Translations under genes and position numbers: made by a program
The notes under the pieces: generated by a model
What the model saw: the letters and a program-made list of their open reading frames with translations, nothing else
Database searches by the model: none
Told to the model about the DNA's origin: nothing
Assembly (NCBI GenBank): GCA_014729675.1
Contig: WJJM01000014.1
Location: forward strand, 1 to 33,247
Reading direction: 5' to 3'
DNA from: Candidatus Woesearchaeota archaeon
Lineage (GTDB): Archaea; Nanobdellota; Nanobdellia; Woesearchaeales; WJKL01
Length of the DNA: 33,247 nucleotides
Shown: one piece after another, positions 6,706 through 33,247 of the stretch
Layout: the number at the start of each line of letters is the position of its first letter
Position numbering within the stretch: position 1 is the first letter of the stretch

Positions 6706-9700
6706 TCATACATCTTCAAGGCTGTGTGCTGTATGGTATCCTGATACAAGATTAAGGTCTCCTGAAGATGTTCTTATTATCTTATCTTCTTTGTACAGCC
6801 TGTATCTGATATAATAATCTCCTGCAAAATCATCTGTATATTCATAAGTGAATGCAAACAGTTCTGTCTTTTTCGGGCCTATTTTGTAAGGGCCGTAGAT
6901 TTCAGATGCTAATGTATTTGGGCCTCCAAACATGGACATGAATAGTCCTGACAATGATGATGAAGGCCTATAAGATACTTCTGGCTCTGAGTTTATGTCA
7001 AATTCTACAGAATAATCTCCTTCTTCATCTTCCTGGTTAGATATAAGGATATAGACATCTGCAGTCCTTGTATTATTGTGCACATCAACCAGCACCAGGA
7101 ATTCTGAGGTGTTTATCCTTATAGGTACCGTCTCCTCATATATTGTCTGGCCGTAGGATTGGAGTTTGAAAGTGAGACCGATCATCCTTTCAGTCCTTAC
7201 TAATGGAGTCTTTAAGTTTATGTCAAAGTCTATAGACTCTCCAGGCCTTAGTGAATCGTAGCCTTTTGAATCTGAAACACCCCATCTCAAAAGTGCAGGC
7301 TCTCTTATGAAATCCTTCAGTATCCAGCCTGTAAGTCTTATGAAATCCCAGCCAAGGATCTTTCTTGGATGCAATATTACAGGGGGCTTTTCTTCTGTCT
7401 CAGCCCTGTCAACAGCTACACTTATATTTGAAATGGTTGAATTTCCCCTGTTCGTGAACCTTACTGAAAGTTTTTTATCCTCTCCTGAAAATGCAGAATC
7501 AGGAGCCTTATATTCATATCTTGTTATCTTCCTTATCTGGTCAAGCTGCCTGTCTGAATAACGAGGAACAACCCTCTCTTCTCCTGTTTCAGGATCTATT
7601 ATCACTTCTTCTTCCTCAGGCTCTATCACTTCAGGAGGTGGCATCTCTGGAGGTATTATCTCTGGTAATTCCGGCTCTTCAGGAGGTATTACTATATCAG
7701 GGGTTCTTGTTCCACCGCCTCCTCCGCCAGTATCATCTGAACCTCCAAATCCTTCATCTATGCTTCCATCGCAATCATCATCAACACCATTCTCTATCTC
7801 TGCAGCTCCAGGATTTATAGAAGCGTTAGAATCATTGCAGTCAACTGGTCCGCAAAGGCCGCCTTCTATCGCATAGCTGTCATTGTCTGCGTCTGTACAA
7901 GATATGATATTCAGGGTATTGCTGCAAAGCTCTGCTCCGTCCTGAAATCCGTCATTTGGGGTTATGCATGCCTGCCAGATATCTCCTGCAGAAGTCTCTT
8001 GAGAGGAGATCTTGTCTGTCCTGTTATCATACAGGAATTCTATCTGTTCAGGAGACAAGGCTGTTGAATATATCCTTATATCATCAATGGTTCCGTTGAA
8101 TCCTCTGTCTGTAAACTGATCATCATAACCTATTGTCCAGTTTGCAGGGACAGGCATTATCTCGTTCCACTGGCTTAGGTTTCCGCCACATATCGGCCTT
8201 TCAATGCCGTTTATATACATGCTAACGTTATTGTTGCCTGCAGAAAAGTATTTCCATGTCACTGCTATGTGTGCCCACTGACCTTTTGATGAGACTGCTG
8301 CAAAATCCACTGCTGCAAATGACTGATAATTGGTTGTGCCTTTTTCAGGCCAGAAGAAAAATGAATTATTGCTTCCGCAGTCGCTTGAGAATGCTATCTC
8401 TATGCCTCTTGCACCTGTTCCGTTGGAAGGTTCAAGTATGTTCTTATTTGTTCCGTCATCGTTCTCAAACTCTTCAGGCTTGACCCATGCTGTGAATGTT
8501 CCTTCTGAAAGGTTGAAATCAAGCTTTCCCTGTCCCTGCACGATTATACTGTCTGAGTCTGGTCCTCTGTCTTCTCCGTCAAATGAGTATGCGCCTTTTC
8601 CATCATAGCCGGCTGTTAATGAATATGCTGCCTTATGGACTCTTGCATCATTGTCCTCTGAATATTCTTTGGCAAAGGTGGAATTTGAAGATTCAAAAGG
8701 AAGTATGAGCTCTTCAAAACTGCTGCTGTTTCTTTTCCATGATATAATATTCTTTACAGGATTTGAATCTGAAGTTGACTGATTATAGACTGTAATGTTC
8801 TCCTGAGTAAGGTTGGTACCTAAAGACGAATTAAGTATTGGTTTTAATTGTGTCGGAGGATTTGAATCAAGATAGAATATTCTTGTCTCTGATGTATTTG
8901 AATTACCTGAATCATCAGAGCAAGTTATATTCCATTGATATGTTCCGTCTGCAAAAGATACTGAATGGGCTGCAGGTGTTGCATTTGGCGATGAAACTGA
9001 TGCATTTACAGTTCCATCTATAGTCAGATTGCAGTCAAGACTGCTGTCCAGATCGTCTGTAGCTGTCCAGTTGAAAGTTATGCTTGATGATGTTGTATAG
9101 TATTCATCATCAGGAGCATTTAGCTGAACAGAAGGAGGAACAGTATCATTGGCACTAGTAAGATTTACAATAAATGTCCTGTTTTCAGTCTGGTTAGAGT
9201 TTTCTAAGCTGTCATTGCACCAAACCCAATAGAGGTATTCATCTTCTGTCAAATTGACAACTGTATAATATGCAAAAGTATCTGCATCATTGTTGTTTAT
9301 GCTCATAGGATATTCTATAACTGCTTTTTCCTCTGGGCCATAGGATATCAGAGAATCTGAACCTGAAAGATATGATGCATTTATCCATGAATGTGAACGG
9401 GATGTGTTGGATATCCTTGCTTCATCTATAAGTCCTGGGAATCTTCTGTCTGAATGTGCGTCTTCTCCTCTGCCGATGTAAAGATCATCTGTCTGGACAT
9501 TTGTACTCTGGTTGAAGTTCAAAGAATTGTTGTCTTCCTGCCCGTCTATATAGAGCCTTACTTTTCCTTCAGATTTATTATAGACAGCTGCAAGATAATA
9601 CCATGTTTTGGTGGATAATGTTGTGTTTGATATGAGATTAGCATTATTACCTCCATAGGACATGACAAAATCAACAAGATCATCTTTTATCCTAAAACTG

Positions 9701-12039
9701 TATTGATCATCTCCTGCCCAATTATCATCTCCTTTATCTATTATCTTTTCTTGAGTAGAACCAAGAGAACTTTCTCTGTAGACCCATGCTTCAAAACTTT
9801 TACTGCCCAGGATATTCAACGAAGCGTGATTTGAGACTACTATCCTGTCTGAATTGCTGTCAAAATCATAAGAACCATCTATCTTACCTGATGAGTTGAA
9901 TGATGCATCTGTATTAGTGCCGTTATTGATGCCTGTTGAATCATTTATCTGGCCTGACTGCTCTTCGAGATGATGGACCATAACATACTTGCTGCTCCAG
10001 ACATCTGATGCATCTTCTGATGCATTGTTTGAGCAGTTATAGTAAAGATATATATAATCTGACAAAGATGGGTCTATCTGAGGGACTTTTACCCAGACAA
10101 ATGAATCTCCTGAACTATCCCATGACTCCATCTCATGAGACAATAATGTTGAATCATCTGCATCGTAAAATCTTATGCCTTCTTTTCTTGCTTTTGAATA
10201 GTTTATATTAGTGGAGTCAAGCTTTATCAATCCAGGGAAATCTACAAGAGCTTCAGAACCCCATGGTGTATTAAATGTGAGTTTTTTTCTATGGGAACAG
10301 TTATAATCTGCCCAAGGATCCCAGTTAAGTATGCATGATGACAGATTTTTATCTGCAGTTATGTTTATAGTTGCATAGGTCTTGTTTATGGTAGATCCAT
10401 TTGAAGGAGTTGGAGCTGTAAAAGTCATATTGATTTCTGAAGGCTGTATCTCCTGGCTGCTTATGCTAATAAATCCTTCAGGATCTATGATGTTCTGATA
10501 TGTAGTGTTTATCCAGTTGCTGTCCAAAGAAAAGTTCATTATCCTGACTTCATCTATCTGGCCATCGAAATAATCTGTAAGGCCTCTTCCATCAGTCCTT
10601 CTAACGCCAATATCAACAGCGCTTGATGTTGAGGCATTTCCAGCTGTTGTGCCTGCCTGAGTTCCATTAAGTTTTCCATCTACGTAGATCTCAAGATCAG
10701 TATCTTTTCTTATGCCCACTATATGATACCATGTTCCATCAGTCAACACTGCATCTGAAGTTACTGACTGAACATTATTTCCAGCAATTTCATAGCTAAA
10801 AACTCCACTTCCTCCGGCACCTAGAGAAAGCTGATATGTTTCATACTGGCCGTTGTCTTTCTTTTCAATGATAGTCTTGTCTGCAGTTGTTGTCTCTATC
10901 CATGCAGAGACTGCTATATGGGTTCCGTTGCCGTTAAGATGATTGCCTGAAATGTCTGTTATATGATCATCTCCTGAGATATTTAATGATCCATCTAAAA
11001 TGCCTTCTATCTTTTCATCCCCTTCGAAATTTACAGCATTCCCATGGGCAGAATATTTGCTTGAATCATTCCTGTCTAAAGTTCCTGATTCAGAAAGATG
11101 CCAAACTCCAAGGAAATTAGAGTTCCACACTGATGATGGATCCTGATTATCAAGGGCAGCAGGATTTCCATAATATATGTATATGGTATTATTGGCTGTT
11201 GAATTAAGATAAGGCATATTTACCCAGATCTCAGCATTTTCTGATGTAGAGTCCCATCTTTCTAGTTCATAACTTAAGTTGTTGTTTGATTCGTCTGTGA
11301 ATCTTATGTCCTCTCCATCTGATTTGGCATCTGAAAAGTTAAAATTGCTTGAGTTAAGCTTTATGAAAAGAGGAAAATCCTGAAGGTCTGCAGCAATCTT
11401 ATTATCAGATATGACTATCTCTTTTCTGTAATCCCAATCATCATCCCACCAGCTTGATCCTGAGATTGAAGCTCCTGAAGTTTGTGATTGGCCAGAACTG
11501 CCTGATGTGCCCATCAAAGGAAGATTTGATGATGAGCCTGATCCTAAAACTGATATCTCCCGGATGTTAAAGATGTTATCATTGAATTCTGAACTTAGAG
11601 TGTATGTTTTCTGATCTGGAGGAGTTAAGACTGAATAGCTTATCTCTGCTGTGCGGTTTACATCTTCAATAATCCATTCAAGCTTAAAATGATCATCATC
11701 ATAGACAGATACCTCTGCTCCGCCTGAATCTGTTATTGTCCAGTCTGAAGGATATATCTCTGCTATGGTCATATCAGGCATGTATCCTGAGACTGATATG
11801 TCCAATGTGATCGATGCTTCAGTAGATGAAGGTATGGAATTGTCGCTGCATCCTGCACATGATATTGTCATTTCTACAGATATAGGGCCTGATTCCCCTA
11901 TGAAATACCCTGTTAAAGATGGATCAACGATTGTTAAGATCAGTATAGTGGCTGATAAAAATATAAGGAACAGTCTGACAGAATAAGGCAGGCTCTGTAT
12001 ATGCCTATACAATCCATCAATATATCTTTTGAATGTCAT
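6706..12039 (-). CDS. giant surface protein with two DUF2341-LamG modules, a third LamG and a MopE-like motif (1777 aa)
   Basis: A membrane-anchored exported protein. Residues 22-38 are the N-terminal membrane segment, followed by LTGYFIG (42-48). DUF2341 begins near 197 (WWDDDWDYRKEIVI) with LamG to about 515. An Ig-like domain near 540-573 is interrupted by a second DUF2341-LamG unit (about 575-900) and resumes at IEYPMSINNN. Ig-like domains follow, then a third LamG (about 1136-1340), a calcium-type motif DCNDSNASINPGA (about 1400-1435), a Gly-rich linker and a Pro/Glu-rich stalk (1446-1483). The C-terminal beta-rich region has no membrane anchor. LamG and DUF2341 domains usually bind carbohydrate or act in adhesion. 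N-glycosylation sequons are dense. The start overlaps the 1589-aa gene by 4 nt (ATGA), so the two are coupled. Confidence 0.9.
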   Translation of the reverse strand: MTFKRYIDGLYRHIQSLPYSVRLFLIFLSATILILTIVDPSLTGYFIGESGPISVEMTISCAGCSDNSIPSSTEASITLDISVSGYMPDMTIAEIYPSDWTITDSGGAEVSVYDDDHFKLEWIIEDVNRTAEISYSVLTPPDQKTYTLSSEFNDNIFNIREISVLGSGSSSNLPLMGTSGSSGQSQTSGASISGSSWWDDDWDYRKEIVISDNKIAADLQDFPLFIKLNSSNFNFSDAKSDGEDIRFTDESNNNLSYELERWDSTSENAEIWVNMPYLNSTANNTIYIYYGNPAALDNQDPSSVWNSNFLGVWHLSESGTLDRNDSSKYSAHGNAVNFEGDEKIEGILDGSLNISGDDHITDISGNHLNGNGTHIAVSAWIETTTADKTIIEKKDNGQYETYQLSLGAGGSGVFSYEIAGNNVQSVTSDAVLTDGTWYHIVGIRKDTDLEIYVDGKLNGTQAGTTAGNASTSSAVDIGVRRTDGRGLTDYFDGQIDEVRIMNFSLDSNWINTTYQNIIDPEGFISISSQEIQPSEINMTFTAPTPSNGSTINKTYATINITADKNLSSCILNWDPWADYNCSHRKKLTFNTPWGSEALVDFPGLIKLDSTNINYSKARKEGIRFYDADDSTLLSHEMESWDSSGDSFVWVKVPQIDPSLSDYIYLYYNCSNNASEDASDVWSSKYVMVHHLEEQSGQINDSTGINNGTNTDASFNSSGKIDGSYDFDSNSDRIVVSNHASLNILGSKSFEAWVYRESSLGSTQEKIIDKGDDNWAGDDQYSFRIKDDLVDFVMSYGGNNANLISNTTLSTKTWYYLAAVYNKSEGKVRLYIDGQEDNNSLNFNQSTNVQTDDLYIGRGEDAHSDRRFPGLIDEARISNTSRSHSWINASYLSGSDSLISYGPEEKAVIEYPMSINNNDADTFAYYTVVNLTEDEYLYWVWCNDSLENSNQTENRTFIVNLTSANDTVPPSVQLNAPDDEYYTTSSSITFNWTATDDLDSSLDCNLTIDGTVNASVSSPNATPAAHSVSFADGTYQWNITCSDDSGNSNTSETRIFYLDSNPPTQLKPILNSSLGTNLTQENITVYNQSTSDSNPVKNIISWKRNSSSFEELILPFESSNSTFAKEYSEDNDARVHKAAYSLTAGYDGKGAYSFDGEDRGPDSDSIIVQGQGKLDFNLSEGTFTAWVKPEEFENDDGTNKNILEPSNGTGARGIEIAFSSDCGSNNSFFFWPEKGTTNYQSFAAVDFAAVSSKGQWAHIAVTWKYFSAGNNNVSMYINGIERPICGGNLSQWNEIMPVPANWTIGYDDQFTDRGFNGTIDDIRIYSTALSPEQIEFLYDNRTDKISSQETSAGDIWQACITPNDGFQDGAELCSNTLNIISCTDADNDSYAIEGGLCGPVDCNDSNASINPGAAEIENGVDDDCDGSIDEGFGGSDDTGGGGGGTRTPDIVIPPEEPELPEIIPPEMPPPEVIEPEEEEVIIDPETGEERVVPRYSDRQLDQIRKITRYEYKAPDSAFSGEDKKLSVRFTNRGNSTISNISVAVDRAETEEKPPVILHPRKILGWDFIRLTGWILKDFIREPALLRWGVSDSKGYDSLRPGESIDFDINLKTPLVRTERMIGLTFKLQSYGQTIYEETVPIRINTSEFLVLVDVHNNTRTADVYILISNQEDEEGDYSVEFDINSEPEVSYRPSSSLSGLFMSMFGGPNTLASEIYGPYKIGPKKTELFAFTYEYTDDFAGDYYIRYRLYKEDKIIRTSSGDLNLVSGYHTAHSLEDV

Positions 12040-15000
12040 CTTTTGCCTGTTTTTTTCTTAGTTTTTTTAGATCTTTTTTTAGTGGACCTTTTAGTCTTTT
12101 TCTTAAGTTTTTTGGATTTTTTTCTTGCTGATCTTTTCTTTTTTACCTCTGCAAGAGGTGACAACAAGAATATTATGGCTAGAATTATTATCAATATCCA
12201 CCAATAGCTGCATATATACATAAATCTCCCATAATCTTTTCCAAGGAATATGCAATCTGATATATGGGCTCCATTTTCATAATCAACCTGTTTTTCAGTT
12301 TTTTTAGCAGGTTCTGTTTCTATTGGCTCTTCTGTTTCAAGAGTCTCTTCAACAGGGCATTCACCACAATCTTCTGGACAGTTGCTGCAGTCTTCCCCTA
12401 CTGAAGAGGCTGTTGTACATATCCCATCTCCGCAGTAGATGTCTGAACCATAGGATGATCCAGATATTTGGACAGCTTCTCCTTGTTTAGCTGGTGATAT
12501 TGTACCTTTTATTCCAGAGTATGTCAGATTTTCTACTTTTATCCAGTTTCCAAGGTCTGTGCAGGTTATACTTCCTTTTGTATAGCCTGCAGAGTTTCCC
12601 AGGCAGGTTGTAAAGTCTGTCTCATTATTGCCAGTACAATCATTTGTTATCTGCGCTACTTGAGAGATCTCATCATCTTTTACACATAAGCTTATGAAAT
12701 TGTTGTCTTGTATGAACAATGTTTTTGTCTCTCCTGGAAGGAGCTGTGATGAAAGATTTACAGCTATCCCTTGATTAGTTCCTGTGTTTATTATCTCTAT
12801 GGACACTTCAGACAAATATATCTTTGAAGTGTTTGAAAAGTTATGAGTGAAGTTCATGAGAATATTGGCTCCATCATAAAATCCTAATGTATTTGTTCCA
12901 GACCAAGAGTTTCCATCTATGTCTGTATTGTTGTTTACTTTTATATCTAAGTTTATTCCTGACTGGGAAACATCATCTTCATTGAAGATAAGATAATCTT
13001 CATCATCCGCTTTGTTGTCCTGATCTATATCTTCAAAGATATAGAATGATGCTTTTTCAGTATCATTTGTGTTGTTTGATGAATCTTTTGCTATTATCGT
13101 TATGTTGTAATCTGCAATTATAGAGGTATTTGAAAAAGTTCCTGTGTAAAGTCCATTGTTTTTGTTTAAAGTTATAGTCTGGAATGATGTGTTCCAGGTT
13201 ATGTTTGCCTTTACTTCAGTTATGCTGTCATAATAAGGATCTATAACTGTTGCGTTTATGCTTATTGTTGAGTTTTGCGAGAAGTTTTTGTTGTTTGGCT
13301 GGACATTTGTTACACTTGGATTTGAAATATCTAATATATTGAAACTTCCGCTTGTTGTATTGCTGTTTCCTGCATTGTCTGTTGCATTTATAACTATGTT
13401 ATAATTTCTAGGGAGGAGTGTTTCCTGGAAGTTATTTTTGTAATACCATTGTGTTCCATTGAAAATTAACTGGATAGTTGTTTTTGTTGAATTTGGGTAT
13501 GTGATTGTTGCTGTAACTGTTGCATTTTCATTGGTTTCTATATTGAATGGAACTGTATCATTTTGATTATAGTTTCCTGATGGAGTTGTTATTGTTATTG
13601 ATGGCGGAGTTGAATCAATACAGTTGTTATCATTGCTGTCTGTATCTCCATCACAGTCATTATCTAATGTATCTGCGCAAGAGGATTCTGGATCTTCATA
13701 GTTTGCTATTCCTGTGTAATCATTCTGCCATGAGCCTGCTGTGCATGATTTTTTAGAGCCGATGCATACTCCTGCCTGCTTGTCATTGTTTGGAGGAGCT
13801 TCTCCTGAGCCGTCTGCTGTTGTTCCATTGCAATCATCGTCAATACCATTGCAGATATCAGAAGCAGCAGGGTTGATGGATGTATTAGTGTCATTGCAGT
13901 CATTTCCCTGTACTGTTGTACAGTTTATAGGGACGCAGTTGTATGTACTGCAGGAGCCGTCTGATGTAGAGTCTATGTATGTGTCTGTATCATTATCGCA
14001 GTAATATGTTAATGTTGGGCAGACTCCTCCTTCGTCTATGTTAGTATCGCAGTTGTCATCTACATTGTTGCATGTTTCATTTGCTCCTGGGTTGATGGAT
14101 GCATTAGTGTCATTGCAGTCATCTCCATCAAAAGCACATCCATCTGAAATATTGCAATTAGGACATACTCCGTATCCATCTCCATCATCGTCATCACACA
14201 CAGCTGTCTGAAGTGTTGTAAAATTAAAATATCCTGTTGTGTTGCAGTTGTTATCTGAATCACATGAAGTTACATTGTAATAGTATAACGTGTTGTTAGT
14301 TAGTGATGTTAGTTGGATAAAATGGCTGGTTGTTGAGTCATCTAATGGTTCTGTTGTTCCTAAACTTGTTGTTGTTCCATAGTTTACACTTGAATTTGCT
14401 AATTCGTTAGTGTTCCATGTTATGTTTGCTGATTGGTTTGTTATATCTGTTGCGTTTACATTTGTTATTGCTGGAGATGTCATATCAGTTACATTAAAAC
14501 TCTCTGAAGTAGAGTTCTGATTTCCAAAAGTATCGTTTGCTTTCAAATATATATCATATGTTCCTTGAGATGTAAGATTAGATGGATCAAGGGTTATAGA
14601 GCCGGATGATGATGCAGATTCATATAATATTGTCCCGTTTGGATATGTAATGTTGAATAAAGCTGTATCCAGATTTGTATCTGATGCAGTCCAGTTTATG
14701 ACAATAGAATCCACATTAAACTCTAAAACTGATGTATTCTTCCATATGCTTAATGACGGATCTGTGTTGTCTGCTTGGCCTATTGTTCCGCCTGATACAA
14801 AATTGTTCATGTTCATCAGATTGTTATAATCAGCTTTTAGCCATGCGTCAGAACGCTGAACCTCTGAAAATCGTACTTCAGAGTATATGCCATTTGCACA
14901 GCGATTACTCGCACGATTAACGTTGACACGCCATGCATCGAACAGTGAATCACCGCCATTATCATACGTCGTACCGTAAGCAGTACCGTCACGCCAGAAT

Positions 15001-16805: not shown

Positions 16806-17077
16806 CTTACAAGCACCTCTTTCTTATCGTATCTGCATCTCCAAATTTTGAGGAACTGTTCTACTTCATCAGCATCTTTTTCAGGAACAAGAAGAACAGC
16901 CCTTCCAAGCTGAGTGATATTAAACTCTTTTACAACTCCTGACTTCCCATCACGCCCCTTAAGAGCATAATAGAATCTTACCTTATCTTTTTTCAAAAGA
17001 TGTTCGGTCGAGTAACTAAATAGAAACATAGGTGAATACTTTTTTCTTTCTAAAATAACCTCTTTTTCCCCGCTCAT
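16799..17077 (-). CDS. 92-aa protein of unknown function, first gene of the giant-protein operon
   Basis: I cannot name the family. It is basic and soluble, with no membrane segment. The core FYYALKGRDGKSGVVKEFNITQLGRAVLLV followed by a helix (EVEQFLKIW) is compatible with a small winged-helix-like fold, but that is a guess. It overlaps the 1589-aa gene by 7 nt, so the two are one transcript. Its ATG lies just downstream of a double operator-TATA-operator promoter. A short first gene behind multiple operators is a common arrangement for an autoregulator, which is the main reason to suspect a regulatory role. Confidence 0.65.
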   Translation of the reverse strand: MSGEKEVILERKKYSPMFLFSYSTEHLLKKDKVRFYYALKGRDGKSGVVKEFNITQLGRAVLLVPEKDADEVEQFLKIWRCRYDKKEVLVRC

Positions 17078-17080
17078 TTA

Positions 17081-17242: not shown

Positions 17243-17938
17243 TCACTTTTCAACAGAGTATATTATCTTGTCAAGAAGAAGTATTGTACCTTTTTCAACA
17301 TCAAAAACAAAGTCATAAGTGCAGCCATTCATCCCAAAAAGAGCGCAAGTGTCGATGCATTCGTCTTTGAATTCAAGACCTTCTGTGTTCTTTACAAAAT
17401 CAACAAATACTTCTTTATCCTGTCCATGCTTTTTTTCCTCTTCAAGAAGAGCTGCAAATGCCTGGATATCTTTAGAATATTGATCCTCACATCTCTGGTC
17501 AAATTCAGGAAGAATATCTTCTCCTTTTAATGAAAATATTATGTCATCAGATGCTAAAAATGGATTGCTTTCTGTATCGCCTGTCTCTTTTACAGCAAAC
17601 CCTGTTATAGCAGAAAGGCTTGGCTTTTCCTGTTCATTGGAATATATAAGATATGATTCTTCCTCATGCTTCAGATATATGTTTACAGAGCCTTCTCCGA
17701 CTATCTTTCCAGAGACCATCATGCTTTTAATAGGAAGAGGCTGTGAGTCTTTAGAAGAAAGAGAGTATACCTGATCATCAAGAACGATTACTTCCAGATC
17801 TTCCATTGAGTAGAGTGCAGGAACATGCCCTGTCACTGAAGGCTTTGATACAAACAAGAATGTAAAAGTAAAAGAAAGGAACAAAAAAACAGCTATCACG
17901 CTTGCCTTTTCCCATCTGTTAAGACTATCTAATACCAT
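17243..17938 (-). CDS. membrane-anchored exported protein, 231 aa
   Basis: Residues about 12-31 are an N-terminal membrane segment (ASVIAVFLFLSFTFTFLF), followed by VTGHVPA. A second motif of the same kind, ITGFAVK, is at 111-117. The rest is predicted extracellular, acidic and strand-rich in its first half. The C-terminal half holds four Cys (RCEDQ, ECIDTC, NGC), likely disulfide bonded. No family is recognised. It is the last gene of the HerA operon, 1 nt after the coiled-coil gene, so it is probably a membrane partner of that system. Confidence 0.8.
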   Translation of the reverse strand: MVLDSLNRWEKASVIAVFLFLSFTFTFLFVSKPSVTGHVPALYSMEDLEVIVLDDQVYSLSSKDSQPLPIKSMMVSGKIVGEGSVNIYLKHEEESYLIYSNEQEKPSLSAITGFAVKETGDTESNPFLASDDIIFSLKGEDILPEFDQRCEDQYSKDIQAFAALLEEEKKHGQDKEVFVDFVKNTEGLEFKDECIDTCALFGMNGCTYDFVFDVEKGTILLLDKIIYSVEK

Positions 17939-22583: not shown

Positions 22584-22591
22584 CTTTACCT

Positions 22592-25159
22592 CTATGATAT
22601 TGTTATTGTTATTGTTGCATTATAAGTTCCTGCCTGAAGTCCAAAAGGCGGAGCTATATGATAGTAAGTGTCAAGAGTCTCATCTAAAGCAGGGTTATCG
22701 CATGATGATGATGAGCATACCTGAAGGCCTGAAGCAGGCTCAAATGTCCTTTGTGTTGAGTCTAGATAAACAGGAGCGATAGTGCCTGATTCTGATGAAT
22801 ATGAATTGTCATCATCTATCTGCATATCTGTTCCGTTCAATGTCCATGTATCTGTGCCTGAAGTTGGATCAGAGATATTCCATTGTATATTCAGATTGTC
22901 ATTTCCCCAATTGGTCATAGTTGCCAATGAAGTGCCGTCATTCCACTGACCAAGTGAAGGGGATCCATCTCCCAGAGTTATAATTGAAGGATAATCAACT
23001 GCTTTTACAGTTCCAAACTCCCATGAGGAACCGATCTCTGGATCTGCAAGCCTTTGACCTGCCTGGGAGGAAACATTTGCATAAATCTTATAATCTGAGT
23101 TTGGAGACTGGAAAAATTCAGGGCCATCTGTCTTGTTTGCTGAAAAAGTATAAGTACATTCAGAACCTGACCTTTCTATAGAATCAAGCTCCCAGCTGTA
23201 GTCTGCTGTTGAAGGGAAGCAAGAGCCTGTATCAAGACAAAGGTAGATATAAGCTGTGCTTGATGTATCGCAGTCATTATCTGCATCTTCTGCTGTTACT
23301 TTTACAGCGACTGCCGCATTTGAGTGTTCTATAGGTGTTAAAGCACATGAAGAGGAAGTGCAGCTTGAATATGCTCCACCATTGTCTGTCATTGAAATAT
23401 CTGTGATGTCTGGGAGAGAGTCATATAATGTTAATGTTGTGTTGTAATAATCTGAAGTTCCTCCTGTGTTTCCGTCTGTGGTCCAGATGCTTGCATAGAC
23501 TGTGTTGTTTGCATAATCTCCTGAAGGAGTTCCCCAGGGTATTGCAGAATCTACTGTCTCTCCTGCTTTGTCTGCATTGTCATTTGATTCATATGTTCCA
23601 TCTCCATAAGATGTTCCCACTCTTATATGATATGTTAGGGAATCTGCAGGCCAATGATCATCTGTTCCGTCATCTGCATCTGTAGCTGTCCATGACAGGG
23701 TTGGTGTTGGATTATGAGTTGATAAAGGGGATAATGATGAGGGTGTGGATGGGATGCTGTTTATAAGATTAAAGCTTGTATCTAATGGTGTTCCGTTTTC
23801 TGAACCATCATCAGGAGTTAATCTTAGATAATATGTTCTGCTTGTTCCTGAATGAAAAATGCCTGATACTGCACTTACATCATCTGAAGAAGATGTTGAA
23901 GAATATGCATCACAGTTGTTTGAGTCTCTTTTTCCTGAAGATGTTGCTATGCATATATGTGTTGTTACATCATCTCCATCATTGTCAAAGGTTGCCCATC
24001 TTAGATTAGGAGTTGAATCATGAGTATCTGGTGTTCCTGCTGAATCCCAGCTTGAAGCTCCGTCCTGTACTTCAAATCCTGAAATTGATGGGGCAGAATT
24101 TGTTATAGTCACTGAAGAACTGTTTACAGCAGTTCCTGCAAGACCATGCTGATCTTTTGGAGTTATCTCACAGATCCATTCTTCATCTGCAGCAGTGTTT
24201 GAAGAATCTATAGTTACAGTTGTAATGCCTCCCTGCAACACTCCGTCTTTATACCATCTGAATGTTGATGAGCCTTCTGAATCAGTATCTGAGTCAGAGA
24301 AACTATATGTGCATGTAAGATCTTGGGATGAGGATGGGGTTGAAGGTGATATCTCTACAGAGCTTGCTGATGGAGCATGATTTACATAAAATGTATGGGA
24401 ATATGAAGATGAGCATTGTCCTGGGCATGAGTTGTCATCTGGAGGGCAGTCGCAGACAAAGAAATATGCTGTATTTGATGTTGAGTCTGACTGCTGGGCA
24501 GTATATGTGCAGCTAAGAGATGAATCGTCTGAATATGTTGAATTGTGCTCGTTGCAGTATTCATCTGCTGTGCATGTTCCATCTGTATCTATAGAATTTG
24601 TACTGCATACTCTTAAATTATGAGCGTCTTCTGAATCAGTATCTGAATGAGAGGACATTGAGAAAGTTATTGTTTCTCCTACATCTTTGTCTCCGTCATT
24701 AGATGCATCTGATGTCTGGCCTGAGATAGTGGGAAGAGCATCTGTCAGTGTAAAAGAGATTGATGTGTTTGCTGTTCCGTTGGTTGTCCCATCATTTGGA
24801 ACAAGTTTAACATAATAGTTTCTTGAAGCTGTGCCCCATGTATAATCCCAGTTTGATTCTAGTTGAGTAAAAGCATACTGGGGATCTGCATCTGGACCTG
24901 TATTGACAACATCGCAGGAATCATCATCTGTATCTGCTGAGATGCATATATAAGTAGAGATAGGATCTCCGTTTACATCTGAACCTTCTGTCCATGAGAA
25001 TATCTGGGACTTGTTATGGGTTGTTTCTGGAGTCCATGAAGAAGGGGCTGGAGGAGCAGAGTTTCCCACATTAAATGTTCCTACAGGGGATTCTGTCTCA
25101 GCGATAACAATAGGAAGAATAAAAATAAACAATAAAGCTATAGTTATCTCTTTTTTCAT
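22592..25159 (-). CDS. large secreted Ig/Fn3-repeat surface protein, 855 aa
   Basis: Residues 1-20 are a signal peptide. At least six Ig/cadherin-like repeats follow, recognised by recurring NSAPP/PSxS starts and by ICISADTDDDSC/ICIATSSGKRDSNNC pairs, which are internal repeats of one domain type. Asp/Asn-rich loops suggest calcium binding. The last 130 residues form a separate beta domain ending AGTYNATITITIS, without a membrane anchor, so the protein must be held by partners, perhaps the two small proteins encoded downstream. It has its own TATA box (25191-25202) and a leader of about 10 nt. Role inferred: adhesin or S-layer-associated protein. Confidence 0.85.
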   Translation of the reverse strand: MKKEITIALLFIFILPIVIAETESPVGTFNVGNSAPPAPSSWTPETTHNKSQIFSWTEGSDVNGDPISTYICISADTDDDSCDVVNTGPDADPQYAFTQLESNWDYTWGTASRNYYVKLVPNDGTTNGTANTSISFTLTDALPTISGQTSDASNDGDKDVGETITFSMSSHSDTDSEDAHNLRVCSTNSIDTDGTCTADEYCNEHNSTYSDDSSLSCTYTAQQSDSTSNTAYFFVCDCPPDDNSCPGQCSSSYSHTFYVNHAPSASSVEISPSTPSSSQDLTCTYSFSDSDTDSEGSSTFRWYKDGVLQGGITTVTIDSSNTAADEEWICEITPKDQHGLAGTAVNSSSVTITNSAPSISGFEVQDGASSWDSAGTPDTHDSTPNLRWATFDNDGDDVTTHICIATSSGKRDSNNCDAYSSTSSSDDVSAVSGIFHSGTSRTYYLRLTPDDGSENGTPLDTSFNLINSIPSTPSSLSPLSTHNPTPTLSWTATDADDGTDDHWPADSLTYHIRVGTSYGDGTYESNDNADKAGETVDSAIPWGTPSGDYANNTVYASIWTTDGNTGGTSDYYNTTLTLYDSLPDITDISMTDNGGAYSSCTSSSCALTPIEHSNAAVAVKVTAEDADNDCDTSSTAYIYLCLDTGSCFPSTADYSWELDSIERSGSECTYTFSANKTDGPEFFQSPNSDYKIYANVSSQAGQRLADPEIGSSWEFGTVKAVDYPSIITLGDGSPSLGQWNDGTSLATMTNWGNDNLNIQWNISDPTSGTDTWTLNGTDMQIDDDNSYSSESGTIAPVYLDSTQRTFEPASGLQVCSSSSCDNPALDETLDTYYHIAPPFGLQAGTYNATITITIS

Positions 25160-25190
25160 AATATACCCTCTTTATTTTTTGTTGATTAGG

Positions 25191-25202
25191 TTATTTATAT
25201 AC
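25191..25202 (-). promoter_or_regulatory. TATA box of the 855-aa gene operon
   Basis: GTATATAAATAA on the - strand, centred about 37 nt before the ATG at 25159. GAGGGTAT close to the ATG is the probable ribosome binding site. Confidence 0.55.
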
Positions 25203-25231
25203 TTTTTGTTTTTTTTTCGGCTGCTTTTTGG

Positions 25232-25762: not shown

Positions 25763-28700
25763 CTAATCGCTCTTTATATCAATAGTGTTATTGTATGTTT
25801 GCGCTTTTGTTTCAGAAGGTATTGTTCCTCTGAAGTATAATGAAACTGTTTCAGCAGGAGCTAAATTGTTTAATTCCTGGATCTGCAGATATCCCGAGGT
25901 TATAGATGTGAAACTGTCTCCTGTATCTGAGTAAGTTGCGTTGCTGATGCTTATGTTGTATGAAGAATCTGAGACACCTATGAAATCTGTTCCTCTTATG
26001 CTTATGTTTATAGGTGTATTCCCTGTATTTTTTATAGTTAAAGGATAAGCTGTTGAAGAATTGATATTTTGGCCTGGAATTCCAGTGAAATTAATATTGT
26101 ATGAGCTTATCGAGTGGGCTGTTAAATCATTATAATAATAGCTGGAATTTTCATTGTCTGTTGAGCCAGTTGAGTTTATATCGATGCTTATGTTCCAATA
26201 GCCTGGATTCCTGAAGTATTCCATGTCCCACTCTGCTGTGCATTGCGTTATCCCTGCAAGCTGCTGTATCTCTCCGGTTATTATAGATAATGTAGGGACT
26301 GTATATGAACCTGAAGAGTTCCAGATACGGATACTGCATGCATCTATCTCTGATGAATTTGTTATGTTTGCTGCTAAGTTTACAGTTACATTTGAGGATT
26401 CTATAGGGTTTATCTGTGTTCCATCTGTGAATTCATCATCATCAGGAGTTATTGAGATTGAGGTTATGTTTAAGGTTGAAGTTAAATGGCTTCTTTTTGA
26501 TATGGAAAGATCATCTATTTCTAAAGAGCCGAAATTCGCGCTGTTAAGTTCATCAAGATATATCCTTACTGTATCAAGAGAAACATCATTGTCAAAGCCT
26601 ATATCACTTTCCTGCAGCTGCCCATCTATATATACATCATAAGAATAATCGCTTATATCCACTATCACGCTTATAACTGCATCATTATCGCTTACAACTG
26701 CAATCTGATTAACAGAAGCTCCATTTACATAACCAAATCCTTCATGATCATCCATACCATGGTCAGGGCCAGCCCATTTTAGATTAACTCCAACTCCTGC
26801 ATTGTCATCTCCTTCTGAAAACTCGCTGCTTTTTCCAAGCTGCATAAATGCTTCATACCAGCTTTCACTGCCAGTCCTTTCAAAATCAAAGACAAATGTC
26901 CAATTTAATGTTCCTGATGACTGTTCTGTAAATGAGTGAGAAACCAACGGCTGATGGTCATTATCATTGGAATCAAAGCTAAGCCTGTTTGAATCTATCT
27001 TTGCCTCTGCTCCTGACAAGCTGTCTGATTCTGACCAGCTATTTCCGACAGTATTGCTATTATCCCTGTTAAAATCATCTGAGAACAGGCTGCTCCATTC
27101 TGATGGAGTTCCATTTACTGTGTAGTTCATGGTTGGAGAGGAATTATACATGTTATTTGAACCGTTTCCATAAGCACCCCAATAATACTCATATGTCCCG
27201 CTTGAGGGCATATCTACTGACACTGAATATTGGCTTGAGATGATAGAAAAGTTATCAAAGTGAACTTCGCATAATGTTCCTGCATTATGGGATGTTTCTA
27301 TAATGCCTACATCCTGTGCTGCAGCTGCAGAGGATAATTCAACAGTATCTACTGTTGTCCAGCTTATTCCATCTGTAGAGCATTCTCCTGTAAATGTTGT
27401 TCCTTGTTTGGTCAACCTAAGATGCATAGGGTATGTGCCTGAGCATGCTGCATCACTGCTATAATCAAGATATCCATTATCATCTTCATCAGCCTGCAGC
27501 CTTACACTGTTTCCAGGTGTAACTGCTACAACAACATAACCTGCTGAACTTCCACTTTGGGTCATGTCATTTCTTGCAGTTATTCCTGCTTTTGCCCAAT
27601 CATCTGTGTCTTCCTGGGATGCTACAATAACTTCTGCAGTCCAGTCTCCTGAGATATCATCTTTGAATACTGCGCCGTATCCATCATCCCCTGTCCAGAT
27701 ATCTTCTCCGTTTGCGTCTATTATAAGCTCCCCCTCTGATTCTGAAAAGCTTGTTCCGCTGATGCCATCTGCATCATGGGTTTCCCAACTATCATCTATA
27801 CTTCCATCGTCGAAAGTATCTTCTGTATATCCTTCTGCAGAATGGTTTTGTCCATCTATGTAAAGGAAAACAGTGCCGTTTGTAGATTCAACAGTTACAT
27901 TAAATACAGCTATTCCTGAATCTGTTAATGCGCCATTATTGTCTTCATAATTACTAAATTTTGGATAGTTATTGTCAATACAGTCAGATGTTGAACTTGT
28001 ATCTTTTACATCGGTATCATTGATATTTCCGTTAGTGTCTTTAGTATGTATTGTGATATTATAACTTATTCCGCAACTTAGATCAGTATAATTATAATGG
28101 TTGTTTGAAGTATTCTGTATATTAACTCCATCCAAGTATATGATGTTTTCACTGAAGTCTTCATCTGAAGGATTTATCCATGTCCAGTATATCCAGTCAG
28201 TTCCTTTGCTTTGGTTGTTTAGGCCTGTTATTGAATCAGGGAGATTTGAGCATGAACCAGTCTGATAGCTATAATAGGTTGTATTTGATGCTTCTCCGCA
28301 ATTATTTTCATCATATTGTGTCCTGTTTCTTTCCTGGCTTATCGTATCATTCTCATAGCAGACAGATGTGTTATACCAGGGGGTCCAGGATGTGTTTACA
28401 AGGCTTGTAATACATGAGCTTATAGTAAGATCAATACTTGGATCGTAATAATCTGAATAATTATTGCTGCCGTTTAAATCAATTGCTCTGCATTTCAAGT
28501 CAATATTTGATTGTTCTGTGATGTTTGAAATGTCCCATGTATGTGAACTTCCATCTGTATGGTTTCCAAGATTATGCCATGAATAACTGCTTGTTGAAGC
28601 AGGCTCAAATGATGCTATTATTCCTGTTCCTCTGTAATTATCAGTCTCTGAGCCTCTTGCCCTGAACTGCCTGTTTGTCTGAGAAGATGTTGAAGATATC

Positions 28701-31700
28701 CAATAAGCTGTAGCTAGGACTGCAGAGCTTGGGTTGTTGCTGTCAGTGGCCTCTGTCATCTCTATTTCAGGGCTTAATCCATCGTCGCTATCTTCTGTGG
28801 GATTAGTATCCCAATCGTCATCATTATATGAACCTCCCCTGCCGCTTGCTGCTCCAAAAACAACTATGCCATCTTGAGGGATATCTATCACTGCAGGATA
28901 TATCTCTGCCTCTGCAGCACTTGTATCTTCAATTTGGCTGTCATATGGGACGCCATCTTTTACATTATAGAACACCAAAACATCCATTGCCCATCCTGAA
29001 TCACCGCCACTGTAAGATATTGTCTGGCTTCCTGACAGGCTGCCAAGATCAGATTCTGTAAAGTAATGCATTTCCTGGTGATTCCCTGCTCCAACATCAT
29101 TGTCTGCTACTTTTAACTGATTAGCACTATTTCCGCTTATTGACACAGTTCCCTGGAATGAAGATCCTGGAGTAGATTCATCATCAAGAATTGCAACAAC
29201 CAATCTGTTGTTTCCTGGCTCCCCTATATCAATAGTATGAGAAGTTCCTGTACTTCCGCTAGCTCTTTGAAATTCTATTGTAGAAGAGCTTCCTTCTGAT
29301 GAGTTGTATTTACCCCACAAATTATATATTATTGTATCATTATCAGAATCTGTTGATCCAGAACATTGTATTTCAACATCTTCGTAGAAGGTATCATTGC
29401 AAGTTCCGCCATTGCAAGTTATTGAAGTTGGTATTGTAGGGGCTTGATTTACTTTATCAACTATAGTAATATTTACTTTCTCAGTCTGATTACTGATCGA
29501 AAGATCGCTTGTCAAATTTGCATAAACAAAAAATTCATAAGTCGAGTTTGCAGTTCCAGTTGCATTTACCCAAAAAGTTACTAACTCTGATTCATCATCA
29601 CTTAAATTAATTGTATAAGGATTACTTGATTTATTTGTATAAAAAGGATTTCCAGAACCTACAGGAATTATCCCTTTTCCTGAACCACCATCATAAGTCC
29701 ATCTCACATAAAGTTTTGGAGCAAGAGAACTATCATCATTGAAATCCTCAATATCTTCGTGTCTTCCATCTCCAGAAGTTATTCCCCTAATCTCAAAACC
29801 CATGTAATTTCCAATTTCCCAATCTTGCTTGTCAACAATGTGCTGAACTAGATCAGTAATATCAGAAGAGTCTTGCCAACCTTCTGAAAATCCATCTTCA
29901 GGAATACTCCAAGAAACAGTCGTCCCCCAATAACTCCTATCTCTAATGTCATCAGCATCACCATTGAAAGCAGAAACATCATCATTATCCTCAACACTGA
30001 TCCTTGCAGTGTAAGATCCATCATCGCCATAATAGTCGTCTTCACCAATGTATAGAGAAAGATAAGCCTCATCTATAGTGGCTCCCTGAGGAATATCAGG
30101 ATCAAACTGATAACCACCAACATCCCACCAATCTGCATCACCAAAATAATTTGAATTAATGCTTCCAGAATCTCCATCATCCCAAGCATCACGATTATTA
30201 GCATCAATTTGAAATGTGTCAAATTCTTGAGGATCAAGAGTAACATTAATTTCACCACAATCTCTACCAGAGCAAGAAACATTGACCGTAAACTCATTAA
30301 ATTCGTCCTTTGTAAAATTACTATCACCCACTGGATCAACTAACTCAATCCCTATACTTGCATTTATAGAATTCTCTCCAACACAACTAATTTCAACATC
30401 ATCAATATATGTTTCATCATTTGAATAACTCACATAAGCCTCGAATCTCATTGAAAAATCATCTGCTAAATAACCATCTAAATCTATTTCAACATCATGC
30501 CAATTAATATCATCATCTCCATCTTCAACATACCAAATTTCATTATTCCAAGAACCATCATAAATATCTAAAGAAAGTTTATCTTCATCCTCATAACTAG
30601 ATAAATAATAAGAAAAGCTCAAAGTACAGTTAGTTTGACCAGATAAATCTAAACTATTTGTAAGAGTTATAAATGAACCTTCATAATTCCACCATTCAGA
30701 ATCTCCATCAGCATGTGCAGAATAAGAACCATGTCCAGAATCAGGAGCAGGATCTGTTCTCCATTCATTATCTCCAGATTCAGTCCAGTTGCTCAAGCTA
30801 TTGTGCTCAAAATCATCATAGAATAGTACGGTTGAAGATTCTGCTGCTGAATCATATGTTACATTAAAAAATAAAACATCCCATGTGGTTGTTTCTGTTG
30901 AGGGCGGTCCGGGATCTTCTCTTGCATTCTCAGATTTTGCTTTTGCTCTTGTTCCTGAAGCTCCGAAGAAATTCTCACATGACCATGACTCTAATTCGGT
31001 TACATCTGTACAGGTTACTCCTGGATTTGCTGATGTTCCAGGACAGGTTGTTGTTACAGCAGTATAGCTGGAATCTCCATCTGCATCAACACTGATATCA
31101 CAGTCCGTAGGGGCTGTATCAGAAGTCCACCATTCATAACAGATCTCTACATTTGTTATTGATTCGCAGTCAGTTATGCTGCTGTTTACGCTTTCTATCC
31201 TTATACCAGCATATTTATTTTGGTCTTGTTTATTGTAGGTGTGTGTCTCTGTTGTTCCGTCATCCTGCTCAAGACTTGCACCGCCGGCATCATCGCAGCT
31301 GCTTCCAAAACTTCCTTTTGGGTCTTCATCTTCAGCAGAACAGCTGTTTATTGTCTCTCCAAATCCAGGGTCTTGCGGCGTTAAAGTAAAGGTATATTCC
31401 TGTCCAGGGGTGAGATTTGTCTTAATCAAAGTCCAGTTTCCAAAACATGTTTGGGTCGTAAAATTCCAAGATTTACATTTATATAATGAAGTTCCAGTTG
31501 CTGTTACTGTAACTGTTGCATTTGTGAAGTTAAGATTTGTTGGATCAATAGCATATGTTTCTTTATATTGCGTTAGGTTCTTTTCTGTTTCATTTACATC
31601 ATCAATCCTGAAGTCCTCTATAAAATCTTCATAGACTTCCATGTCCCTGAACTCTATCTCTTTTACAGGATGATTCTCTAAATTAACCTTTATATTGTAT

Positions 31701-33247
31701 TCTCCTTCATCTATTGTTTTTTCTGGCTCATTTTTTTGTTTTACTGATCTTGTTTGTTCTGTTAAACTGTCAATGAGTTCGATGCTTGAATTTATTGTTT
31801 GATTTTTGGCATCCCTTACATTAGACTTTAATCTTATCTTCTTTGCCTCCCCAAACTCAAAAGCTTCTGTATGTGAGCCAACTAATATCCTGAAACGTTC
31901 ATTATCGTAGTTGTATACTTTCAATGTGATAATCTCATGCTCTGAAGCTATATCTTTGTCAAGAGTGTAGTTTGTTATCCTTCCTTTTACAAAGATAGGC
32001 AAAGGCTGATAATAATCATGATGGAATATTACTGTCAAAGTTTTTGTCTGGTTGTCATAGGAAGTTGAATCAAGGATAGCATCATATCTTGCGTCTTCCT
32101 TTACTTTCTTGTATGTTATGTTTGTCCTGTTCTCTGTGCCTATTGTTTCCATGAATGCTACTTCCCCCTCTGAAGAGCCTATAAATACAGAATAAAGCCC
32201 ATCTATATCTTTTACATATTCAAATGCAGACCTGCAACCCCTCCATCTGTAGCTCCAATCAGGACATTTATAGAGCCTGGATCCTTTTGAGACAACAGTG
32301 ATGTTAACATCGGAATAAGGCACGTTTGATCTTAAAGCATAACTTTGTACAACATTGTCCATCTCAACCTGATCTTGATCAAGCTCTATGAACTTGTTTG
32401 AATCTTCCTGGATAGAAGCTGAAGTTAAGGTTATACTTTTTAATATGTGCTCATGAGGCGTAATATTGATATCATATTCTCCCTGCATTATCCTTACAGT
32501 GTTGTTGCTTTTTGTTGAATTTACAAACTCATTCTTAGGGGAGATGCTTATATCTGAGATTATCTCTTCATCTTCATGAGACATCACGCTGAACTTGAAC
32601 TGAACTGGGACTTTTGTTGTGTTCTTTAGGGTATAGCCTATGCTGCCTATCTCAAGCATCCCTGAGTCTATCTCAAAGATAATCTTATAATCTGTATGAT
32701 TCAGGCTGGATGGAAGGGAACATGTATCTTTGCAGAGATTTTCAAAGCTAAACTTTTTTACAGATCCTGCTTTTTCAGGGTTAAAAACAGCATTTGCAGA
32801 AGCGATTATCTTTACTTTTTCATCCTTTATCCTTATCCTTGCTGCTCTTTTCTGCTCTCCTGAATAAGAGAAGTGCATAGGAATCTTTATCTTTGAAGTG
32901 CCGATAGGAATGTTTTTTGAAGAAGGCAGTTTTAGGACGTATGTATCCTCATATCCTTCTATATCCAATAATAGGTATCTTAGATCTATAGGCTGTATCT
33001 CATCATTAGTTATATCTAATAAAATCTCTGTTATAGTCCCCCATGAGCCTTTCCAGTCATGGGAAAATGTTGCATTTGTTATGATGACATGCTTATATGC
33101 GGCTATCTCTGTTATGTTCTTAAGTTCTATTGTTTTATTTTCAGGCTCAATAGTTATGTTTTCTTCAGGCTCTGATATGTTTATATCTACATTTTGGGTG
33201 ATGTTTTGGGTGATGTTTTGGGTGATGTTTTGGGTGATGTTTTGGGT
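25763..33247 (-). CDS. giant adhesin-like surface protein, 5' end beyond the window (at least 2494 aa)
   Basis: The ORF track starts at a TTG at 32968, but the frame stays open to the right edge, so the true start lies outside. The first visible residues are four TQNI repeats. The module shared with the 1589-aa protein follows (31357-32115 in DNA). Next come a Cys-rich region, a MAM-like jelly roll (VLFYDDFEHNSLSNW), a carbohydrate-binding-like domain near SINSNYFGDADWWDVGG, Ig-like domains, a Cys/Trp-rich unit (NTSWTPWYNTSVCYEN), a DUF1349-like beta sandwich (WTTVDTVELSSAAAAQDVG), another jelly roll (WYEAFMQLGKSSEF) and a closing beta domain ending TYNNTIDIKSD. There is no C-terminal anchor. 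Ligand-binding domains and dense sequons indicate attachment. The codon use of one internal stretch differs from the rest. Confidence 0.85.
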   Translation of the reverse strand, partial: TQNITQNITQNITQNITQNVDINISEPEENITIEPENKTIELKNITEIAAYKHVIITNATFSHDWKGSWGTITEILLDITNDEIQPIDLRYLLLDIEGYEDTYVLKLPSSKNIPIGTSKIKIPMHFSYSGEQKRAARIRIKDEKVKIIASANAVFNPEKAGSVKKFSFENLCKDTCSLPSSLNHTDYKIIFEIDSGMLEIGSIGYTLKNTTKVPVQFKFSVMSHEDEEIISDISISPKNEFVNSTKSNNTVRIMQGEYDINITPHEHILKSITLTSASIQEDSNKFIELDQDQVEMDNVVQSYALRSNVPYSDVNITVVSKGSRLYKCPDWSYRWRGCRSAFEYVKDIDGLYSVFIGSSEGEVAFMETIGTENRTNITYKKVKEDARYDAILDSTSYDNQTKTLTVIFHHDYYQPLPIFVKGRITNYTLDKDIASEHEIITLKVYNYDNERFRILVGSHTEAFEFGEAKKIRLKSNVRDAKNQTINSSIELIDSLTEQTRSVKQKNEPEKTIDEGEYNIKVNLENHPVKEIEFRDMEVYEDFIEDFRIDDVNETEKNLTQYKETYAIDPTNLNFTNATVTVTATGTSLYKCKSWNFTTQTCFGNWTLIKTNLTPGQEYTFTLTPQDPGFGETINSCSAEDEDPKGSFGSSCDDAGGASLEQDDGTTETHTYNKQDQNKYAGIRIESVNSSITDCESITNVEICYEWWTSDTAPTDCDISVDADGDSSYTAVTTTCPGTSANPGVTCTDVTELESWSCENFFGASGTRAKAKSENAREDPGPPSTETTTWDVLFFNVTYDSAAESSTVLFYDDFEHNSLSNWTESGDNEWRTDPAPDSGHGSYSAHADGDSEWWNYEGSFITLTNSLDLSGQTNCTLSFSYYLSSYEDEDKLSLDIYDGSWNNEIWYVEDGDDDINWHDVEIDLDGYLADDFSMRFEAYVSYSNDETYIDDVEISCVGENSINASIGIELVDPVGDSNFTKDEFNEFTVNVSCSGRDCGEINVTLDPQEFDTFQIDANNRDAWDDGDSGSINSNYFGDADWWDVGGYQFDPDIPQGATIDEAYLSLYIGEDDYYGDDGSYTARISVEDNDDVSAFNGDADDIRDRSYWGTTVSWSIPEDGFSEGWQDSSDITDLVQHIVDKQDWEIGNYMGFEIRGITSGDGRHEDIEDFNDDSSLAPKLYVRWTYDGGSGKGIIPVGSGNPFYTNKSSNPYTINLSDDESELVTFWVNATGTANSTYEFFVYANLTSDLSISNQTEKVNITIVDKVNQAPTIPTSITCNGGTCNDTFYEDVEIQCSGSTDSDNDTIIYNLWGKYNSSEGSSSTIEFQRASGSTGTSHTIDIGEPGNNRLVVAILDDESTPGSSFQGTVSISGNSANQLKVADNDVGAGNHQEMHYFTESDLGSLSGSQTISYSGGDSGWAMDVLVFYNVKDGVPYDSQIEDTSAAEAEIYPAVIDIPQDGIVVFGAASGRGGSYNDDDWDTNPTEDSDDGLSPEIEMTEATDSNNPSSAVLATAYWISSTSSQTNRQFRARGSETDNYRGTGIIASFEPASTSSYSWHNLGNHTDGSSHTWDISNITEQSNIDLKCRAIDLNGSNNYSDYYDPSIDLTISSCITSLVNTSWTPWYNTSVCYENDTISQERNRTQYDENNCGEASNTTYYSYQTGSCSNLPDSITGLNNQSKGTDWIYWTWINPSDEDFSENIIYLDGVNIQNTSNNHYNYTDLSCGISYNITIHTKDTNGNINDTDVKDTSSTSDCIDNNYPKFSNYEDNNGALTDSGIAVFNVTVESTNGTVFLYIDGQNHSAEGYTEDTFDDGSIDDSWETHDADGISGTSFSESEGELIIDANGEDIWTGDDGYGAVFKDDISGDWTAEVIVASQEDTDDWAKAGITARNDMTQSGSSAGYVVVAVTPGNSVRLQADEDDNGYLDYSSDAACSGTYPMHLRLTKQGTTFTGECSTDGISWTTVDTVELSSAAAAQDVGIIETSHNAGTLCEVHFDNFSIISSQYSVSVDMPSSGTYEYYWGAYGNGSNNMYNSSPTMNYTVNGTPSEWSSLFSDDFNRDNSNTVGNSWSESDSLSGAEAKIDSNRLSFDSNDNDHQPLVSHSFTEQSSGTLNWTFVFDFERTGSESWYEAFMQLGKSSEFSEGDDNAGVGVNLKWAGPDHGMDDHEGFGYVNGASVNQIAVVSDNDAVISVIVDISDYSYDVYIDGQLQESDIGFDNDVSLDTVRIYLDELNSANFGSLEIDDLSISKRSHLTSTLNITSISITPDDDEFTDGTQINPIESSNVTVNLAANITNSSEIDACSIRIWNSSGSYTVPTLSIITGEIQQLAGITQCTAEWDMEYFRNPGYWNISIDINSTGSTDNENSSYYYNDLTAHSISSYNINFTGIPGQNINSSTAYPLTIKNTGNTPINISIRGTDFIGVSDSSYNISISNATYSDTGDSFTSITSGYLQIQELNNLAPAETVSLYFRGTIPSETKAQTYNNTIDIKSD
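29420..30830 (-). other. segment of the giant adhesin gene with atypical codon use
   Basis: In this stretch isoleucine is coded mainly by ATT (for example GATATTACTGATCTAG, GAAATTGGAAATTAC), whereas flanking parts favour ATA (for example AACATAAGCATAAGAGGA). It covers the MAM-like and carbohydrate-binding-like domains. The difference suggests a separate origin for these domains. Boundaries are judged by eye. Confidence 0.5.
31357..32115 (-). repeat. duplicated surface-protein module, copy in the giant adhesin
   Basis: Matches 15887-16632 in protein (DARYDAILDSTSYD through TFTLTPQDPGFGE) and in long DNA runs. This copy carries a few extra residues and sits deeper in the chain than its partner, which follows directly after a membrane anchor. 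Confidence 0.85.
33192..33247 (-). repeat. 12-bp in-frame tandem repeat coding TQNI, running off the window
   Basis: The + strand unit TTTTGGGTGATG repeats four times perfectly and continues as a partial unit to the last base. On the coding strand it reads ACC CAA AAC ATC, that is T-Q-N-I, so each junction creates the N-glycosylation sequon N-I-T. The total copy number is unknown because the window ends inside the array. Confidence 0.9.

Follow-up and report, generated by a model that had tools for sequence, protein, structure and literature searches.

The gene cluster of the window is a conserved system and not a chance neighborhood, and the copy analyzed here is a divergent variant of an operon conserved among DPANN archaea. 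For its ATPase, which is fused to a surface protein, the most likely function is contact-dependent transmembrane translocation resembling that of Ced systems and coupling proteins, the cargo and direction of which we infer. The window, i.e., the whole stretch of DNA analyzed (33,247 bp), comprises the entire contig C72 of a draft genome of 1.44 Mb and 92% completeness. As checked by coordinates and gene sizes, the cluster extends on the minus strand from position 33247 down to approximately 6706; its genes and those of the plus-strand group at the other end of the window are as follows:

25763-33247, minus strand: giant surface protein of at least 2494 aa, 5' end past the contig end
25232-25762, minus strand: duplicated-HTH protein, 176 aa, with two sigma-70-region-4-like units (Pfam Sigma70_r4_2, E 9e-10)
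22592-25159, minus strand: secreted protein, 855 aa, rich in Ser/Thr/Asp and without Pfam family
21990-22583, minus strand: 197-aa protein with signal helix, transmembrane (TM) helix close to the C-terminus and Lys-rich cytosolic tail
21517-21993, minus strand: small secreted Ig-like protein, 158 aa (weak Ig matches only)
21280-21426, minus strand: AbrB-like protein, 48 aa, overlapping the HerA start codon
18659-21283, minus strand: HerA fusion, 874 aa (Pfam HerA_C, E 6e-13; DUF87, E 3e-10)
17940-18662, minus strand: coiled-coil partner, 240 aa, soluble, with the aromatic/basic ending KKRWFF (family alignment)
17243-17938, minus strand: anchored TM protein, 231 aa, with TG motif after the helix; starts 1 bp past the coiled-coil gene
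16799-17077, minus strand: 92-aa protein without known family
12036-16805, minus strand: 1589-aa surface protein with TG-motif anchor, MopE-type metal-binding motifs, CGDxxC, C-terminal TM helix and Lys-rich tail
6706-12039, minus strand: 1777-aa surface protein with TG-motif anchor, three Laminin_G_3 domains (E 8e-60) and two DUF2341 stretches
186-4606, plus strand: FKBP-like protein, FtsZ, SecE, Spt5 and L11 (SecE and Spt5 by Pfam, the rest by eye)

Several genes of the cluster overlap by 4 bp (AbrB-like/HerA fusion, HerA fusion/coiled coil, 158-aa/197-aa and 1589-aa/1777-aa proteins) or 7 bp (92-aa/1589-aa proteins) and are therefore probably translated jointly in few units. These units probably are giant-HTH-855-197-158, AbrB-HerA-coiled coil-231 and 92-1589-1777. 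A previous sequence-only reading had placed four large surface proteins, a motor and a coiled-coil protein on one strand, and the gene sizes and positions were confirmed. Among the up to three regulators named in that reading, the AbrB-like and duplicated-HTH proteins were retained, and the 92-aa protein was dropped, having no detectable family; neither this protein nor the 231-aa protein had any match in Pfam and NCBIfam. The giant (31355-31567) and the 1589-aa protein (15882-16103) share a domain that is 77% identical between them, representing either a recent duplication or an exchange inside the cluster. Within the genome, strong copies of this domain were found only on the window contig; it is also present in the giant protein encoded 3' of the coiled-coil gene in three relatives. 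Downstream (3') of the cluster, at 4645-6651, genes for a 98-aa TM protein with Lys-rich tail, a 347-aa coiled-coil protein and a 182-aa protein without family are located, which may or may not belong to the HerA system.

The HerA fusion starts with a membrane helix carrying the TG motif, a CGDxxC module (aa ~122), a Gly-rich linker and a coiled stretch, followed by two Ig-like domains (aa ~183-412), a TM helix (aa ~427-453), the ATPase (aa ~473-740) and a helical hairpin tail. In the AF2 model, built with 71 relatives, most of the ATPase exceeds a pLDDT of 90, and residues 21-160 are below 50. Foldseek assigned the ATPase to archaeal and bacterial HerA structures (4d2i, E 1.6e-13; 8xav; 9x1m), followed by TcpA, and the ectodomain exhibited structural likeness to the biofilm scaffold protein RbmA. 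When the family profile was compared with solved structures, only HerA chains scored below E 1e-3, FtsK and DotL being far weaker. Membership of the ATPase in the VirB4/TraG group was rejected, since HerA is recovered in this comparison. Among the 71 sequences, Walker A residues G500/G503/G505/K506, Walker B D627, Q665 and most of the REFRKWG core are invariant or nearly so, and Walker B E628 is kept in at least 90%. A HAS barrel is absent from the model, in which the TM helix ends at 453 and two short strands only precede Walker A (~500). The Pfam search also returned a ResIII match (E 1.6e-4) and neither a LamG nor a serine protease domain for the fusion; LamG is located on the 1777-aa neighbor. 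Alignment and model show this membrane topology and intact catalytic residues of the ATPase.

Scanning one genome per species yielded 281 confirmed matches to the HerA fusion family, and the best 77 of these were examined as loci in detail. Named loci among the best 77 belong to the DPANN groups Woesearchaeota, Pacearchaeota and 'Nanoarchaeota', apart from a few that come from archaeal bins bearing odd labels. In an even draw, the family was detected in 45 of 194 phylum genomes, a few of the 45 matching the ectodomain part only; since only about a quarter of the phylum genomes carry it, the way of life of the group does not depend on the family. Gene order recurs among the best 77 of 281 loci. 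The usual operon comprises, from its 5' end, one or two RHH genes, a surface protein of about 1000 aa and the HerA fusion (~1300 aa), followed by genes for DUF5752 and/or a helical hairpin, for a coiled coil and often for a giant surface protein. Considering loci with enough flank, the upstream surface gene is present in 34/45 and RHH in 26/45, and downstream the DUF5752/hairpin gene is present in 33/49 and the coiled coil in 35/49. Genes were called by a simple ORF rule and TM helices by hydropathy, small genes being uncertain; DUF5752 was confirmed by Pfam, and the RHH-like match is slightly below the Pfam cut-off. The ~1000-aa upstream partner possesses a C-terminal TM helix and a conserved, all-helical, TPR-like cytosolic tail (pLDDT 95), for which the fold search returned weak TPR-like matches (E at least 0.009). 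The modeled tail suggests that surface contact may be relayed to cytosolic partners. In one relative (G044:C36; L085 8948-12900), the HerA fusion is interrupted by an in-frame TAG, which separates an ectodomain gene (587 aa) from an ATPase gene (716 aa); this may reflect a genuine split, a stop codon that is read through or else an error.

The neighborhood comparison across Woesearchaeota and Pacearchaeota, proposed earlier as a check of the cluster being a system, was positive in that coiled-coil genes and genes for large surface proteins co-occur with the HerA fusion. HerA operons without large surface genes nearby, which would have spoken for the opposite, are mostly not what was found: another large surface gene is present in 38 of 44 loci of at least 15 kb, and the HerA gene itself encodes a surface-protein fusion. 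Furthermore, the coiled-coil gene is inherited together with the ATPase. Among 60 relatives, the window genome included, it was detected in 16/16 genomes with the ATPase vs. 2/44 others. One of these two (G008) has a HerA gene cut by the contig end at the ATPase start; counting it, the figures are 17/17 vs. 1/43. The resulting p value is about 1e-12 or below, with relatedness ignored. The coiled-coil model was partly built from the same genomes, and G008, G019, G024, G026, G043 and G052 are positive without having contributed a sequence. In G019 and G043, the coiled-coil and HerA matches are located on different contigs. As a separate observation, a coiled-coil gene in G019:C36 (L180) lies amid several genes of the duplicated-HTH type, and the 16 kb examined there contain no HerA fusion.

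An AbrB-like gene preceding the HerA fusion occurs in the window only, G026:C41 featuring an AbrB-like 57-mer that overlaps its giant HerA frame; the AbrB-like gene does not hold as a general HerA partner, most relatives having RHH genes instead. The duplicated-HTH family was found in 41/60 genomes with up to eight copies, mostly just 5' of large N-anchored surface genes (e.g., L165 10750, L167 3949, L170 870, L172 1173 and L183 991). With this distribution and with surface genes of any kind following it, the duplicated HTH was rejected as a HerA-specific partner; these proteins are likely a regulator class of surface-gene islands.

The motifs considered to tie the operons together fared differently. 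The xTG motif, which follows the N-terminal helix, is overrepresented here, occurring in 4/8 cluster genes with N-terminal TM helix vs. 1/69 such genes in 266 kb sampled from this genome; the respective N-termini are those of 6706-12039, 12036-16805, 17243-17938 and 18659-21283 (for relatives, see L055-L110). Across the family, TG/IG/VG-[YFWH] directly follows the N-terminal membrane helix in 44/54 long HerA fusions vs. about 4% of other N-anchored proteins, and no known sorting signal was recognised in it. CGDxxC was rejected as a system marker, being present elsewhere in the genome as well (2/263 sampled genes), and Lys-rich tails are not markers either.

Regarding gene content, the window keeps the HerA fusion, the coiled coil and large surface genes, and is without RHH, DUF5752 and the TPR-tailed surface partner. 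In the tree of 79 ATPases, that of the window forms the longest branch (2.35 for the end branch), and its placement is therefore unsure. As the most divergent copy, and one without RHH, DUF5752 and the TPR-tailed partner, the window version may have changed its role.

Among known systems, the SPEARE proteins of Nanohaloarchaeota combine protease, adhesion regions and a cytosolic ATPase part (PMC6642349, PMC10266531), a plan which the 4,197-aa relative of G045 matches. Their cytosolic part was first read as type III restriction, with similar cytosolic sequences reported from Woesearchaeota (PMC6642349), and later as a VirB4/TraG-like ATPase with a second ATPase gene next to it (PMC10266531). 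Compared by published description, the family has in common with them a long Ig/adhesion extracytoplasmic region, a TM helix near the C-terminus and a conserved cytosolic ATPase weakly matching ResIII, as well as, in one relative (G045), a subtilase and, in some relatives, an adjoining second ATPase gene. In contrast, the window protein has just 874 aa and neither a protease nor a LamG domain of its own, although the topology agrees. Moreover, the typical woesearchaeal form of about 1300 aa is encoded in an operon with RHH, TPR-tailed protein, DUF5752 and coiled coil, genes that PMC6642349 and PMC10266531 do not describe for SPEARE. The cluster is probably a relative of the SPEARE proteins.

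In terms of function, CedB/CedD represent the closest precedent in archaea, CedD being a TM-anchored ATPase of the HerA clade required for DNA import (PMC11868833). Both systems are archaeal and contain TM-anchored HerA-clade ATPases in paralogous pairs, but the family has no CedA-like channel and carries a large outside arm in place of the VirB4-type N-terminal domain. The CedD NCBIfam model matched 18/18 scanned members and gave the best E value among models (4e-13), with scores far under the cut-off; for the window fusion, the score was 36.7 bits at a cut-off of 600, the similarity being local. No polytopic conserved gene adjoins the HerA gene in the best 77 of 281 loci, and the cluster itself revealed no gene for a CedA/VirB6-like polytopic channel, a relaxase or NurA and none for an obvious cargo; relaxase and VirB genes had no Pfam or NCBIfam match among the scanned window genes.

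Coupling proteins (VirD4/TrwB) are built as helix, outside domain, helix and ATPase. The fusion matches this layout of the type IV coupling proteins (TcpA, TrwB, TraD), and TcpA is among its structural matches; however, it is nearer to HerA in sequence and fold, its outside loop is much enlarged, and neither a relaxosome nor a mobile element context is present. The HerA-NurA and SIR2/DUF4297-HerA defence complexes share the ATPase fold and catalytic residues, whereas the fusion is without HAS barrel and without NurA or SIR2 partner and possesses TM helix and ectodomain.

For the cluster as a whole, we infer attachment and transfer as the function. Six HerA fusion subunits would assemble into a ring, their helices enclosing a passage across the membrane. 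The Ig arms, together with the neighboring LamG/Ig giants, would attach to the surface of host or partner cells, and contact might be passed on to the cytosolic helical tails, the DUF5752 adaptor and the coiled coil, acting as gate or scaffold for the motor. The motor would then pump a polymer over the membrane, most likely DNA, with import favored over export, and less likely protein; expression would be controlled by the AbrB-like and duplicated-HTH proteins. A membrane-anchored HerA ring motor whose surface arms and giants bind a partner cell and trigger polymer pumping, most likely of DNA, upon contact is given an even chance of being correct.

Effector injection similar to type IV secretion, with the motor exporting proteins into the attached cell, has been proposed for giant proteins of cultivated nanohaloarchaea (PMC10266531). 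The architecture and the adjoining second ATPase gene agree with that proposal (PMC10266531), as do the tandems of giant and short ATPases in G019, G024, G026 and G052, but the ATPase is of the HerA clade by sequence and structure, being neither VirB4 nor a coupling protein, and effector-like cargo genes were not recognised in the examined loci. Effector injection is accordingly considered unlikely, with DNA uptake being the likelier of the two. An adhesion or signalling complex, in which the ATPase acts as mechanosensor or remodelling switch on the arm and the helical tails and nothing is translocated, would fit the highly variable ectodomain combined with a conserved cytosolic part, the TPR-like tails and the DUF5752 and DUF835 modules resembling signalling or scaffold modules, and the absence of a channel gene from the loci. 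Against this, the whole catalytic core is strictly conserved, and HerA-clade enzymes of known function are polymer-translocating rings (PDB matches), so that such a complex is regarded as improbable.

It is even harder to reconcile the data with a machine for export or assembly of the organism's own giant surface proteins. Large surface genes do adjoin the HerA gene in the 38 of 44 loci mentioned above; however, ordinary N-terminal signal or anchor helices, as in Sec export, are present even on the HerA fusion, and large surface proteins occur in many genomes without the ATPase, making this explanation very unlikely. Finally, a DNA repair or defence HerA gene might have entered an adhesin island by chance, such islands being gene-mixing zones, and PADLOC HerA models indeed match the ATPase. 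This reading is hardly credible: ectodomain and TM helix are fused to the ATPase, recurrent gene order and coiled-coil co-inheritance (at the p value given above, with relatedness ignored) contradict it, and the family had no match in viral contigs or plasmids. The contact-triggered, membrane-anchored translocation motor is the preferred reading.

The core gene family is already known in outline. Its operon, partner genes and distribution were not found in the open-access literature searched, in which no paper on DUF87 in Woesearchaeota or on DUF5752 in archaea was found either. In this context, what had been a lone curiosity among the giant proteins of halophilic nano-archaea becomes a defined operon, the partners of which are named and which occurs in about a quarter of the sampled phylum genomes; this bears on the question of how host-dependent DPANN archaea obtain material from the cells to which they adhere. 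The putative ATPase ring, the coiled coil, the DUF5752 adaptor and the surface partner are gained as experimental targets, and the short versions of about 700-1300 aa are much more tractable than proteins of 9,000 aa. A wider proposal, tentative and somewhat doubtful, would see here an undescribed, widespread contact-dependent machine for uptake of DNA or another polymer in Woesearchaeota and Pacearchaeota, the ATPase ring of which bears host-binding arms, with the SPEAREs as one branch and giants having arisen repeatedly from short forms.

Across the family, the ectodomain arm ranges from about 400 to more than 11,000 aa. Giant frames without masked bases encode 8,055 aa (G057:C4) and 9,165 aa (G026:C97), and lower bounds were obtained for G158 (at least 8,189 aa) and G178 (at least 11,424 aa). 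A frame of 15,809 aa in G026:C41 (L188-L190), which also ends in a HerA ATPase, was dropped, as it spans an N run (5,549 X, a third of its length). The 4,197-aa protein of G045:C9 combines an S8 subtilase, Ig-type domains, TM helix, HerA ATPase and DUF835; its subtilase triad is intact (D600/H632-634/S784), and its ResIII match has an E value of 8.7e-5. The DUF835 of this protein (L035) is located at the C-terminus (aa 4069-4188). Tandem giant and short ATPase genes were found in G019, G024, G026 and G052. In the ATPase tree (79 sequences), a minimum of six changes is required to account for the giants. For three genomes (G024, G026 and G052), the tree joins the giant ATPase with the short ATPase from the same operon as sister sequences. 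Hence, arms are easily gained or lost, and paired ATPases evolve together. Such sister pairs are as expected for subunits of one ring.
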